Positions 23,372 through 45,864 of a stretch of 64,000 nt of DNA are shown one piece after another. The notes beneath the pieces are model-generated. The model made no database searches and was not told the origin of the DNA. It saw only the letters and a list, made by a program, of their open reading frames with translations. Within the stretch, counting starts at the first letter, position 1. The number at the start of each line of letters is the position of its first letter. Made by a program: the position numbers and the translations under genes. The DNA is from Candidatus Dactylopiibacterium carminicum (GTDB taxonomy: Bacteria; Pseudomonadota; Gammaproteobacteria; Burkholderiales; Rhodocyclaceae): contig NZ_MDUX01000012.1 of the NCBI RefSeq assembly GCF_014736495.1, forward strand, positions 1 through 64,000. Reading direction: 5' to 3'.

Positions 23372-24985
23372 ATGCGCATGTCCCAACGGCTGCTGGCCCT
23401 CATCGGCCTGGCCACAGCCGGTCTGCTCTTCCTTGCTGTGATCAACGTCGCCCAGATCAGGACGGTGCATGAGAAGACCGGTTACGCCAACGTCAATGTG
23501 GTGCCCAGCATCCTCCTGCTGAACAAGGCCATGGAGGAATTCAGCCACATCCGCGTACGTGCTTACCGCCACGCGCTGAGTGATGACGTCGAAGTCAAAC
23601 AAGGGCTGGAAAAAGCCCTGGATGAGGCTGAAGACAATCTTGAAAAGGCGCTGACGGATTACGCCCCGCTGGCCTCGGACGACCAGGATAAACGCCTGCT
23701 GGAAACGGATCACGAGCTGCTCAAGCGCTACATGACCACCACGCGCCAGGTGATCTCCGTCTCGAATTCCGGTTACCGCGAAGAAGCGCTGTCACTGCTG
23801 ACGCAGAATGCCAAGCCCGCCGAGGCGCTCAACGACGCCTTCGTGGCGCATATGGCCTACAACCGGCAGTTGGGGCAGGAGCACGAACGCGAGGCTGCCG
23901 CCACCGAGCGCTCAGCCACCTATACCGCCATCGCGCTGGTACTGGCCGTGATCCTGGCGGTCTGTACACTGGGTTTCTTCACTTACCGCCACACCGTGCG
24001 CAGCCTCGGCCTGGCCAACACCATCGCCGATCGCGTCGCCTCCGGCGATCTGCGCCCCTCGGCACAGCGGAACCTGCCGAATGACGAGATCGGTCATCTG
24101 CTGCGCCGCCTGGAAGGCATGCGTGCCAGCCTGCAAGAAACCGTGCGCGCGCTGGGTGACAACGCCAACCACCTGCATGGTTCCGCCGAACAGCTGACCG
24201 GCGTGGCGGGCCAGGTATCACAGGCATCGGAACACCAATCGAGCTCGACGGCATCTGCGGCGGCGGCCGTCGAAGAACTCACCGTCAGCATCGACGTGGT
24301 CGGTGGCGGTGCGGAAGACGCCAGCCATCGCGCCGCCCAGGCGGGCGAGCTTGCGCGCCAGAGCAACAGCGAGGTCAGCGGCGCAGTGGAGGGCATCCGC
24401 AAGGTTTCAAGTCAGATCGGGCTCACAGCGGAACGTCTGACGGCGCTCTCGGCCCAGGTCGCACAGATCGGCTCGATCTCCGTGGTGATCCGCGAACTGG
24501 CCGAGCAGACCAATCTGCTGGCGCTCAATGCTGCGATCGAAGCGGCGCGCGCCGGCGAACACGGCCGGGGCTTTGCCGTAGTGGCCGATGAAGTACGCAA
24601 GCTGGCCGAGCGCACCACCACCTCGGTGCAGGAGATCAACCAGGTCATCGACGCAATCCAGCATGGCGCGCAGGACGCGGTCGACAGCATGCAGACCAGC
24701 CGCGATTCCGTCACCGGCGTGCTCGGCGCGGCAGACTCCGCCAGCCGTTCGATGGAAGAGATCTGTCAGGCCACCGACACCGTGCAGCAGGCTATCGCGG
24801 ACATCTCGCTGGCACTCAAGGAACAACGCGTCACCTCCTCCGAGCTCGCACGCAGCGTGGAAACCATCGCCCAGATGTCCGACGAGAATGCCCGCGCGGT
24901 CGCTTCGCTGTCCGACGCCTCGAACGAACTGCTGGGTATTTCCCGCTCGCTCACCGACACCACGGCCCGCTTTACGGTGAACTGA
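23372..24985 (+). CDS. methyl-accepting chemotaxis protein with four-helix-bundle sensor
   Basis: 537 residues. TM1 ([15 protein letters not shown]), a periplasmic four-helix-bundle domain of about 155 residues (4HB_MCP type, with repeated E-x-x-L patterns), TM2 ([11 protein letters not shown]), HAMP, then the signalling hairpin with [19 protein letters not shown] and [12 protein letters not shown]. No C-terminal pentapeptide for CheR/CheB is present. A GGAG lies seven bases before the ATG. It is a stand-alone chemoreceptor; 4HB receptors often sense small organic acids or aromatics, but the ligand here is unknown. Confidence 0.92.
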
Positions 24986-42504: not shown

Positions 42505-43373
42505 CTGCCGCGCGGCCCGATCAGGCCGTTGGCCAGCGCCGTGCCGAGCAGCACGATGGCGCCGCCGGCAAGCATGCTCAGGGTGACGGGCTCCGCGAGG
42601 AACAGATGCCCCCACAGCACGCCGAACACCGGAATCAGGAAAGTCACCGTGAGTGTGCGCGCAGGCCCGATCTCGGTGATCAGGCGGAAGTAGATCAGGT
42701 AGGCCCAGCCAGTGCAGACCACCGCCAGCGCGAGGATCGCCAGCCAGTCGCCCACCTGCGGCGCGGCGCCTGCAGGTGCCGCCAGGGCCAGCGGCAGAGC
42801 GACCAGTGCCGCCATCCACATGCTGCCATGCGCCTGCGCGAACGCCGGGATGTGGCTGGCGTGCTTGCGGGTGTAGCTGGTCGCCAGCGCGTAACACAGC
42901 GGCGCGCAGAGCGCGGCCAGCGTGGCGATCCAGCCCTGATTGCCATGCACACCGGCATTGCCGCCGACGATCAGCAGCACACCGGCGAAGCCGAGCCCCA
43001 ACCCCAGCATGGCCGCCGACCGGAGCGGCACGCGCAGCCAGATCGCCACCACCAGTGCCCCGAAAATCGGCGTGGCGGCGTTGATGATGGAAAGCAGTGA
43101 GGCGTTCAGTGTCTGTGCCGCGAAGGCATAGAGCAGAAAAGGGATGCCCGAGTTGAACGCACCGATGAACAGCAGGTGGCGCAGGTTGCCTCGCCAGGCG
43201 AGATCGCGCTTGAGCCACAGCGCCACACCGAGCAGGAACAGTGCCGCCAGCCCGACGCGCAGCACGATCAGCTTGCCTGGCCCGAAGACCGGCACACCGA
43301 TGCGGATGAAGAGGAAGGAAGCGCCCCAGATGGCGGCGAGCAGGATCAGCTGGAACAGGTTGCTGCGGGACAT
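42501..43373 (-). CDS. EamA/DMT-family transporter
   Basis: 290 residues in ten hydrophobic segments forming two EamA repeats. It opens with F-Q-L-I-L-L-A-A-I-W-G-A-S-F-L-F-I-R, the family start, and the second repeat ends with F-L-I-P-V-F-G-V-L-W-G. DMT proteins export metabolites or amino acids; none can be specified. It is translated just before the AraC-MGMT gene with a four-base overlap, so the two are one transcript, an association seen elsewhere without a known reason. Confidence 0.9.
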   Translation of the reverse strand: MSRSNLFQLILLAAIWGASFLFIRIGVPVFGPGKLIVLRVGLAALFLLGVALWLKRDLAWRGNLRHLLFIGAFNSGIPFLLYAFAAQTLNASLLSIINAATPIFGALVVAIWLRVPLRSAAMLGLGLGFAGVLLIVGGNAGVHGNQGWIATLAALCAPLCYALATSYTRKHASHIPAFAQAHGSMWMAALVALPLALAAPAGAAPQVGDWLAILALAVVCTGWAYLIYFRLITEIGPARTLTVTFLIPVFGVLWGHLFLAEPVTLSMLAGGAIVLLGTALANGLIGPRGR

Positions 43374-43500
43374 GGCGGGACAGTGGCTGACGGGGGGTGC
43401 ATTGTGGCGCCGGCGCCCGCCGGCCGCCACCCGATTCTTGCGATCCGCAGCGCCGCTGCCCGCAAGCCACACCCGCCGATGTCCGCCTGCGGACGCCGGC

Positions 43501-43806
43501 TCAGCAGCACTCTTCCTCGATCTTTTCCAGCAAGGCCTGCGCTTCGCGATCCTCGTGGGTCTCGAAGAATTCGCGCAGCTGGTTGAGATGGCAATGGACC
43601 ATGAACAGATCGTCCGGCTGCGGCCCGGTTTCGCCGGCAGCCTTCTTCTTGAAATATTCCCAGAAGGCATTGGTCTTGGCCGGATCTTCCAGATGGCGAT
43701 ACAGCATCTCCATCAGGAGACGGGCGTTGCCGTCGCAATCGATGTCGGAAAAGCTCACATAGCGGTCTGGCGCGCCGCCGCCGGGTTTCTGGCAGGAACA
43801 GGACAT
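43501..43806 (-). CDS. cowN: CowN, CO-protective protein for nitrogenase
   Basis: 101 residues. D-R-Y-V-S-F-S-D-I-D-C-D-G-N-A-R-L-L, then D-D-L-F-M-V-H-C-H-L-N-Q-L-R-E, F-F-E-T-H-E-D-R-E-A and the terminal I-E-E-E-C-C are the CowN family pattern as I recall it. CowN sustains nitrogen fixation in the presence of carbon monoxide, a strong nitrogenase inhibitor, as shown in Rhodospirillum rubrum. The gene lies 59 bases downstream of a CooA-type CO sensor on the same strand, and that gap plus the end of the sensor gene holds a CooA-type site with a plausible -10. This implies that the host carries nitrogenase, although no nif structural genes are in the window. Confidence 0.88.
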   Translation of the reverse strand: MSCSCQKPGGGAPDRYVSFSDIDCDGNARLLMEMLYRHLEDPAKTNAFWEYFKKKAAGETGPQPDDLFMVHCHLNQLREFFETHEDREAQALLEKIEEECC

Positions 43807-43836
43807 GGCATGGGATCCTCGGATTGGATGGGCTCC

Positions 43837-43879
43837 ATGCTATGCAAGCCCTCGCGCCCGCGCTGTCAGCCAGCCGACA
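43837..43879 (-). promoter_or_regulatory. putative CooA-dependent promoter of cowN
   Basis: TGTCAGCCAGCCGACA at 43864-43879 matches the described CooA site TGTCA-N6-CGACA exactly; it overlaps the last codons of the CooA-like gene. On the minus strand a TAGCAT hexamer (43842-43837, four of six bases of TATAAT) is placed so that the predicted transcription start (about 43830) puts the site centre at -41.5, the class II activator position. No -35 box is needed there. cowN begins about 24 bases after the predicted start. Confidence 0.7.
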
Positions 43880-44540
43880 CTTTGTGCATATTGCCGACGG
43901 GGCGCCCGCGCGCCAGCCAATCCTGCAGCAGCCCGGGACGCAACAGCAGCAGCCGGCCACGCGCCGGACGGGCGATCACCGCCTCGCGCTCCAGCTGGTT
44001 GAGCAGGCTGGATACCGTCTGCCGTGAAGTGCCCAGCATCAGTGCCATTTCCTGCGTGGAGAGCGCCAGCGTCACCTGCGCGCCCGGCGCCACCGCACTG
44101 CCCTGCTGACGCGCGGCGAGCAACAGGAAACGCGCCAGTCGGCCAGCGACGTCACGGAAGGCCAGGTCCTCGATGATGGCGATGCTGTTGTCGAGGATGC
44201 GCCCCAGCACCGGCATCACCATCGCCAGCATGCCCGGCTCGTTGGCCATGGTGCGCACGAACTCGCGCGTGGGCAGCGCCAGCAGCTCGCAGGCGCTCTC
44301 GGCACGCAGGAATGCGCGGGTGTGGGTGCTGAAGAGTTCTCCCGGCGAGAGATACGCCAGTGTCAGCTCGCGTTCCTCGGAAGCCACGAAGACGCGGATC
44401 CGCCCCTGGCGCAGCAGCAGGATGCGATCGTTGGGATCATGCGGTGTGCTCACCAGGCTGCCACGCGCCAGCCGCCGGCTCACGAAATTCGTCAGCAGGG
44501 TTTCGGGCAGCGGCGCGGCGGAATGCTGGGGAGGATTCAT
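43866..44540 (-). CDS. cooA: CooA-like CO-sensing Crp/Fnr-family regulator
   Basis: 224 residues: a cyclic-nucleotide-binding-fold sensor domain, the long C-helix (R-I-L-D-N-S-I-A-I-I-E-D-L) and a C-terminal helix-turn-helix L-M-L-G-T-S-R-Q-T-V-S-S-L-L-N. The haem loop reads G-E-L-F-S-T-H-T-R-A-F, very like the F-C-T-H-T-R-A-F of the Carboxydothermus CooA; His73 aligns with the axial haem histidine, while Ser71 replaces the cysteine that ligates ferric haem in R. rubrum CooA. The S-R-Q-T recognition helix is conserved. It should bind CO at haem and activate cowN next door. The ATG at 44540 is chosen from family length; no strong ribosome site is evident. Confidence 0.85.
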   Translation of the reverse strand: MNPPQHSAAPLPETLLTNFVSRRLARGSLVSTPHDPNDRILLLRQGRIRVFVASEERELTLAYLSPGELFSTHTRAFLRAESACELLALPTREFVRTMANEPGMLAMVMPVLGRILDNSIAIIEDLAFRDVAGRLARFLLLAARQQGSAVAPGAQVTLALSTQEMALMLGTSRQTVSSLLNQLEREAVIARPARGRLLLLRPGLLQDWLARGRPVGNMHKVSAG

Positions 44541-44967
44541 GGCATGCGATGCGCGGACGGATGACCGATGACAGCGCAAGTTGCATGCCGGAAGGCGAAA
44601 GCCGCGGGCGGCTGGCCAGACGCGATCACGCGGGCCGCCTTTTCGTGCGGGAAACGGACGATCTTGCGGCATACACGACAAAGAAGCCCCCCACGCTCTA
44701 CCGCTTCGCGGAGTCGCTGCCCCCCAAGGGGGCTTTTTGCCTTGGGGCGGCCCGGCGGGGAGAAAAGCCCCCACGCTCTCCCGCTCCGCGGGTCGCTGCC
44801 CCCCAAGGGGGCTTTTTTGCCTTGGGGCGGCCCGGCGGCAAAATAACAGCGCCGCACGCTGCGTTTCGGGCATAAACAAAGAGGAATTGCGTTGTTCGGC
44901 GGGCCGCCGGGCCGCTGTTAAGCTGGCCCTTTATTGACTGCGCCCCGCCGCCGGGCCCGGCGACGCG
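44541..44967. other. 427-base spacer between cooA and the EAL gene
   Basis: No convincing gene. The middle is occupied by the two tandem copies of a GC-rich repeat described separately (44683-44840). The part next to cooA (44541-44680) presumably holds its promoter, which I could not pin down. Confidence 0.6.
44683..44840. repeat. two tandem copies of a ~77-base GC-rich intergenic repeat
   Basis: Two near-identical units (about 44683-44759 and 44764-44840), each with CCCCCACGCTCT, CGCGG, GTCGCTGCC, a CCCCCAAGGGGG hairpin with a following T run, and GCCTTGGGGCGGCCCGGCGG. The unit resembles intergenic repeats common in betaproteobacteria. The hairpin plus T's may act as a terminator reading rightward. 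Confidence 0.8.
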
Positions 44968-45864
44968 ATGAGGATCGACTCCATTCTTGCTTTCTTCGAG
45001 CACTGGGCCGGACGCCATTGCCTGAGCCAGCACAGCCTGCGCTTCGACGACCGCGGCGCAGTGGGCTGCTTCGGCGAGTACGAACTGCACAGCGTCTTCC
45101 AGCCCCTGTTCGGCGCCCAGGATCCGGCGCGTGCATTGGCCTTCGAAGCACTCGCCCGCGTGCGCAACCAGACGGGGCTCCAGATCCCGCCTCAGATCGC
45201 GTTCGATCTGCCGCAGAATCCCGCCGAGATCATCTTCTTCGACCGCCTGTGCCGCATGGTGCATGTGGTGAACTTCGTCACCCAGCCGGCGCACGAGCAC
45301 TGCCGCCTGTTCCTCAACGTGAATGGGCGCCATCTTTCCAGCATCCGCAGCGGCACGCACGGCGAAGCCTTCGAGGGGCTGCTGCGTCAGGCAGGCCTGA
45401 TGCCGCAGCGCGTGGTGCTGGAGATCCTGGAATCCAGCGTGGATGACCTGGACCTGCTGATCGCGGCCGTCAATGCCTATCAGCAACGCGGCTTCCAGGT
45501 CGCCATCGATGACTTCGGCGCACGCCACTCGAATTTCGACCGGCTCTGGCAGCTCTCGCCAGACATCGTCAAGCTGGATCGCCAGCTGATCCGGCAGGCC
45601 CAGCACGACTCACGCGCCGCGCGCATCCTGCCAAAACTGGTGGAAATCATCCACGATCTGGAAGCGCAGGTTGTCTGCGAAGGCATCGAAACCCATACGC
45701 AATGGCAGATTGCGCGGGATGCCGGCGTCGATCTGGTGCAGGGTTTCCTGTTCGCCCGACCGCAGGCAGACCTGCAGTTTGCCGGGCGGCCAGTGCCCAC
45801 GGCGCAACCCGGGCGTGCCCGGACAACGGCGGGCTCACCGCTGGGAGCCCTGGGCGCGGCCTGA
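44968..45864 (+). CDS. EAL-domain cyclic-di-GMP phosphodiesterase
   Basis: 298 residues, essentially a lone EAL domain with a short N-terminal extension. Catalytic positions look complete: F-E-A-L-A-R, L-N-V-N, E-I-L-E-S, D-D-F-G, K-L-D, C-E-G-I-E-T and Q-G-F-L-F-A-R-P. It should hydrolyse c-di-GMP in the cytoplasm. There is no obvious sensor domain. It is divergent from cooA across the repeat-containing spacer; no functional link is evident. Confidence 0.88.
   Translation: MRIDSILAFFEHWAGRHCLSQHSLRFDDRGAVGCFGEYELHSVFQPLFGAQDPARALAFEALARVRNQTGLQIPPQIAFDLPQNPAEIIFFDRLCRMVHVVNFVTQPAHEHCRLFLNVNGRHLSSIRSGTHGEAFEGLLRQAGLMPQRVVLEILESSVDDLDLLIAAVNAYQQRGFQVAIDDFGARHSNFDRLWQLSPDIVKLDRQLIRQAQHDSRAARILPKLVEIIHDLEAQVVCEGIETHTQWQIARDAGVDLVQGFLFARPQADLQFAGRPVPTAQPGRARTTAGSPLGALGAA

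Follow-up and report, generated by a model that had tools for sequence, protein, structure and literature searches.

A predicted CO-responsive circuit placing cowN under CooA control in Candidatus Dactylopiibacterium carminicum

We conclude that a 64,000-nucleotide stretch of the Candidatus Dactylopiibacterium carminicum genome (hereafter the window) very probably encodes a CO-responsive nitrogenase-protection circuit, in which cowN would be controlled by the CO-sensing regulator CooA specified by the adjacent gene. An earlier note on this DNA had proposed a CO-sensing circuit of this kind. That reading agrees with our sequence tests, which cover protein families, nif genes elsewhere in the genome, a CooA box recurring in 58 of 59 cooA-cowN loci, a phased −10 element and an invariant heme-ligand histidine.

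The cooA-cowN locus and its regulator

The two genes lie on the same strand with cowN downstream, and 59 nt separate the stop codon of the regulator from the cowN start codon.

43501..43806, minus strand: cowN, encoding the nitrogenase-protecting protein CowN, 101 aa (PF20543, E=1.6e-39; NF033689 equivalog)
43866..44540, minus strand: cooA, encoding a CO-sensing CRP-family regulator, 224 aa (PDB 2fmy, 1e-37; invariant residues)

In profile searches, CowN scored 134.8 bits against PF20543 (curated cut-off 27) and 133.4 bits against the NF033689 equivalog (cut-off 48), a family match that predicts a function in shielding nitrogenase from CO. The window is contig 64 of an assembly of 3.59 Mb (99.31% complete; order Rhodocyclales). 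The earlier note had suggested searching the rest of the genome for nitrogenase genes, and a profile search of the genome places nifH, nifD and nifK on contig 105, all over their cut-offs, and nifA exceeds its own cut-off on that contig as well. The same kind of search of the genome found no anaerobic CO dehydrogenase CooS (TIGR01702), and the best matches to the aerobic enzyme CoxL reached 108.9 bits, far below the cut-off of 991.

Among solved structures, the regulator is closest to 2fmy (1e-37) and 2hkx (1.4e-35), both of which we take to be Carboxydothermus CooA, and to 1ft9 (1.1e-29), presumably R. rubrum CooA. The next full-length relatives are of CRP type, the best of which reaches only 1.4e-14 as against 1e-37 for 2fmy, and the regulator is indeed CooA-type, as had been proposed. 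No CooA-specific model is among its Pfam and NCBIfam matches. Around the heme loop, where the alignment with 1ft9 has no gaps, Ser71 falls opposite Cys75 and His73 opposite His77, confirming that the heme-ligand histidine is kept. This histidine is invariant in 81 of 81 CooA relatives (the window plus the top 80 among 166 confirmed loci that two peptide patterns had picked out), as are the recognition-helix residues R173, Q174 and S177, whose R. rubrum counterparts presumably contact DNA.

Cys75 is the ferric heme ligand in R. rubrum CooA, a trait of that protein and not of the whole family. Its replacement by Ser71, which the earlier note had singled out, is real in the 1ft9 alignment but is not an oddity, as Ser or Thr occupies this position in 79 of the 81 relatives and Cys in one. 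One of the two peptide patterns demands S, T or C at this position, so these counts are no census of the residue; with cysteine in a single relative, we do not treat it as CooA-defining. A second feature concerns the N-terminal Pro2, which is the distal heme ligand in CooA. N-termini differ among CooA relatives, and because the present regulator begins MNPP, a free Pro2-like N-terminus is unlikely. Taken as a whole, the regulator resembles R. rubrum CooA (1ft9) as a CRP-family heme sensor that keeps the counterpart of His77 and the R-Q-x-x-S recognition helix, and differs from it in carrying Ser71 instead of Cys75, in its N-terminus and in belonging to a genome in which no CooS was found.

Lack of the redox-switch cysteine and of a Pro2-like N-terminus could also be taken to mean that a heme-based regulator of the CRP family acts here on cowN in response to redox, NO or heme instead of CO. 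The missing cysteine, however, is general, with Ser or Thr in 57 of the 59 cowN-linked CooAs (from the best 80 of 166 loci plus the window), and the target of the regulator is a CO-protection gene. We therefore give this alternative very little credence and keep to CO as the predicted signal. Elsewhere in the genome, the CooA profile has another, weaker match at C89:16927-17466 (L174; 79 bits).

The CooA box and the predicted cowN promoter

Two elements upstream of the cowN start codon make up the candidate promoter.

43864..43879, minus strand: CooA box TGTCGGCTGGCTGACA, which includes the TGA stop codon of cooA and whose centre falls at −41.5 relative to the predicted start
43837..43842, minus strand: TAGCAT, predicted −10 element of cowN, following the box by 21 nt, with the start predicted at ~43830

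Read on the cowN strand, the site at 43879-43864 matches the CooA consensus, as the earlier note claimed, and fits the form tGTCg-N6-tGACa quoted in the accessible part of PMC8047169. The proposed geometry stands as well, with TAGCAT (43842-43837) 21 nt past the site and a start near 43830 that puts the centre of the site at −41.5. By position and conservation, the site has the layout of a CooA-dependent class II promoter, the cowN start itself being a prediction. A generic sigma-70 scan of 43300-45000 found nothing; such a scan would miss an activator-dependent promoter that has no −35 element.

The motif taken by itself is at genome background. In the window, TGTC-N8-GACA occurs twice (the second match is at 24764-24779) against 0.82 expected, and at least two matches arose in 24 of 100 shuffles. 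Genome-wide, TGTCR-N6-YGACA has 11 matches versus 8 for a reversed control, and the box with TANNNT at 21 nt has one zero-mismatch match, the cowN site, versus 2 for the control and ~4 expected from the base composition of the window. Allowing up to one mismatch in the full pattern gives 36 genome matches versus 110 for the control, which is noise. We thus rejected motif significance as evidence, including the uniqueness of the box-plus-spacing match, and an exact match to the consensus carries little weight alone. As judged from sequence, what lifts the site above chance is where it lies and the conservation of box and spacing, not its motif. None of the ten other TGTCR-N6-YGACA sites, which include 24764-24779, has TANNNT at 21 nt on either strand. 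One of them (C103:3325) has TAGCAAT nearby and precedes an aroC-like frame, and a CooA regulon with differently spaced sites may exist in this genome.

Conservation was examined at the 81 CooA loci, of which 59 (from the best 80 of 166 plus the window) have cowN at most 260 nt downstream on the same strand. The box count does not cover the remaining 22, in 20 of which no cowN was found on the stretch, while the other two, L098 and L100, have cowN further off. The box is present at 58 of these 59 cooA-cowN loci, the exception being L055, where the best candidate scored 6 of 9 and was not accepted. L071 was removed manually from the detailed counts because its top match sat at the cowN start; a box of equal score, CGTCGGCCAGCCGACG, begins in this locus 10 nt downstream of the first cooA stop-codon base. 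Counts of offset, overlap and bases accordingly refer to 57 loci, from which L055 and L071 are excluded.

GTC-N8-GAC is kept in all 57 boxes, a count that leans towards conservation in that the score used to pick boxes rewards TGTC and GACA. The inner bases are conserved too, following the pattern YGTCGGCYRGCYGACR (G5 in 47, G6 in 51, C7 in 56, G10 in 52 and C11 in 54 of 57), which means that the six positions given as ‘N6’ in the consensus are constrained at these loci. Downstream, the distance from box to TANNNT is exactly 21 nt in 39 of the 57 loci and 22 nt in 11 more; TANNNT occurs at most once at any other offset from 0 to 30 and is missing from both preferred positions in 7. With the downstream sequence shuffled, TANNNT fell at 21 nt in 0.46 loci on average and never in more than 3 (1000 trials), where the shuffles, like those for GG-N8-TTGC below, are mononucleotide and keep base counts only, and the loci are related and not phylogenetically independent. 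A conserved box with a phased −10 element is the expected look of a class II CooA promoter and points to activation by CooA at these loci.

The earlier note had also called it unusual that the site overlaps the stop codon of the regulator. The overlap is present, with TGA inside the box, but 15 of the 57 loci share it, 12 through a TGA inside the box that ends the gene, as in the window, and three through TAG in another frame. In 33 of the 57 loci, the box starts somewhere from 15 nt before to 12 nt after the first stop-codon base. At three loci (L051, L056 and L082), the cooA frame continues into cowN without a stop, through fusion, frameshift or sequencing error.

Could the 16-mer instead be an upstream site for NifA, making cowN an ordinary NifA/sigma-54 gene and CooA a mere neighbour? 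TGTCGGCTGGCTGACA also fits TGT-N10-ACA. Moreover, the NifA-type site upstream of nifH, TGTCGCCATCCTGACA (L157:7080-7095), whose start precedes that of GGCACAGGCGTTGC by 115 nt, fits the CooA consensus too, so the consensus alone cannot separate NifA from CooA, and overlapping CooA and NifA sites are reported in the accessible part of PMC8047169. The comparison of loci does discriminate between them. TGT-N10-ACA is broken in 31 of the 57 boxes (it fits 26), whereas GTC-N8-GAC is kept in all, under a picking score that rewards TGTC and GACA. GG-N8-TTGC appears within 60 nt after the box at only 1 of 57 loci (shuffle mean, 0.59), and in place of a sigma-54 element the box is followed by a −10 element phased at 21 nt. 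Together, these observations favour CooA over NifA as the predicted regulator at cowN and leave the NifA alternative highly improbable.

A probable promoter of cooA and a second cowN among the nif genes

Upstream of cooA, the sequence has features of a nitrogen-fixation promoter.

44575..44590, minus strand: sigma-54-like −24/−12 element CGGCATGCAACTTGCG, whose end lies 34 nt upstream of the cooA start codon
44665..44680, minus strand: imperfect NifA-type upstream element TGTCGTGTATGCCGCA (TGT-N10-GCA), tentative

CGGCATGCAACTTGCG scores 13.5 of 15, the highest score from 50 shuffles being 12.5. From its GG to the cooA ATG is 49 nt, compared with 49 to 55 nt in the five closest relatives (L042-L046). 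GG-N8-TTGC occurs at most 130 nt from cooA in 37 of the 59 loci (best 80 of 166 plus the window) and is missing before cooA in the other 22; shuffles averaged 2.7 and reached 12 at most, and other GG/TTGC spacings, from N4 to N13, were found in 1 to 12 of the 59. No exact TGT-N10-ACA NifA upstream site lies within 350 nt of cooA in the window. Because a sigma-54-like promoter precedes cooA, NifA may gate its expression; in the available part of PMC8047169, cooA of Gluconacetobacter diazotrophicus is called likely RpoN-dependent. The region upstream of cooA also contains a 52-nt direct repeat (44713-44764 and 44792-44843; 77% identical, ungapped), each copy of which bears a terminator-like hairpin (GCCCCCCAAGGGGGC plus a T run).

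A further cowN gene lies outside the window.

C105:13222-13539 (L157): second cowN, 105 aa, downstream of nifHDK

A nifX-like frame, which at 94.8 bits falls short of its cut-off of 112, also lies upstream of it. The start of this cowN overlaps the preceding reading frame, and the gene probably shares one transcript with the nif genes. The two CowN proteins of the genome are 50% identical. In a CowN tree of 81 rows, built without identical copies (7 noted) and fragments under 70 aa, the eight nif-borne copies form one group (98/97), on few columns and with several long branches. Within the genus, a nif-borne cowN is found in seven of eight genomes, the same seven that have nifD, and the nifD-less genome has no cowN. 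Close CooA proteins (best E 8e-98 or below) with a cowN of their own occur in three of the eight genomes, and weaker relatives of the CooA profile (4e-25 to 5e-22) occur in three, the present genome included. With respect to the proteins themselves, Cys-Cys falls within the last five CowN residues in 65 of 81 proteins examined (for example, L020 and L040), and the two CowN proteins encoded by this genome each carry an N-terminal C-x-C.

A second intact cowN in the genome, and the lack of a close CooA in four of the seven nifD-bearing genus members, would fit a redundancy reading in which the cooA-linked cowN is a relic and the nif-borne copy gives protection. Against this, the cooA and cowN frames, the box and the −10 element are all intact and match those of relatives, and we consider a relic unlikely. 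The sequences suggest, instead, a basal cowN borne by the nif cluster plus a CO-induced cowN linked to CooA. For Uliginosibacterium, we tentatively extend this to a division of CO protection, at chances that we place slightly short of even, in which the nif-borne CowN would be made with nitrogenase and the CooA-linked CowN would need both N2 fixation and CO. If true, a feed-forward AND gate that elsewhere operates on one doubly controlled gene would be spread over two CowN paralogues. A title-level search found no publication on two cowN copies among the matches listed, which is no proof of absence.

Proposed circuit and relation to known systems

We propose that the circuit would operate as follows. 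Under N2-fixing conditions, cooA would be transcribed, probably by sigma-54 RNA polymerase with an activator such as NifA. By analogy with its family, CooA would hold heme via His73, and binding of CO would cause the dimer to adopt its DNA-binding form. CO-bound CooA could then bind TGTCGGCTGGCTGACA at −41.5 for class II activation of a sigma-70-type cowN promoter at the predicted start, and the CowN produced would keep nitrogenase working in CO. Basal CowN probably comes from the nif-borne gene, so that the CooA-linked copy would serve as a CO-induced reserve.

That CooA controls a cowN next to it has been put forward before, in the accessible parts of PMC4257681 and PMC8047169, and the present case is therefore a well-supported further example. 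In Rubrivivax gelatinosus and relatives, cooA adjoins cowN and CooA has been suggested as the cowN regulator, and strains IL144 and R. benzoatilyticus are described as having no anaerobic CODH genes (PMC4257681, as far as available). Gene adjacency, suggested CooA control and, in some strains, the lack of anaerobic CODH genes are thus shared with the present genome. Control in Rubrivivax was suggested from gene arrangement in the text available, whereas the box, the −10 spacing and the second cowN are features of the present genome.

In G. diazotrophicus, the order is algH-cooA-cowN, with tGTCg-N6-tGACa 60 bp upstream of cowN (PMC8047169, accessible part). A CooA sequence upstream of cowN and a likely RpoN-dependent cooA are common to both systems. 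There, however, a NifA site overlaps the CooA sequence and cowN is also NifA-dependent according to the same excerpts, whereas here the interval from box to cowN shows no sigma-54 element, and the nif genes are accompanied by a cowN of their own. In Rhodobacter capsulatus, NifA and CooA are reported to act jointly on cowN expression (Hoffmann et al. 2014, as cited in the accessible part of PMC8047169). CooA dependence of cowN is predicted here as well, but the two controls, which act together in R. capsulatus, look split over two cowN genes. The main additions over the known cases are likely to be the second cowN among the nif genes and the likely nitrogen-fixation promoter before cooA.

There are several implications. 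First, this locus offers a testable CooA for which the box-plus-spacing pattern identified a single target, a nitrogenase-protection gene, in a genome in which no CooS was detected. Second, with another cowN among the nif genes, it becomes of interest why certain diazotrophs retain a pair. More generally, the conserved layout of box, 21 nt and −10 element lets a CooA-controlled cowN beside cooA be recognised in other diazotrophs.
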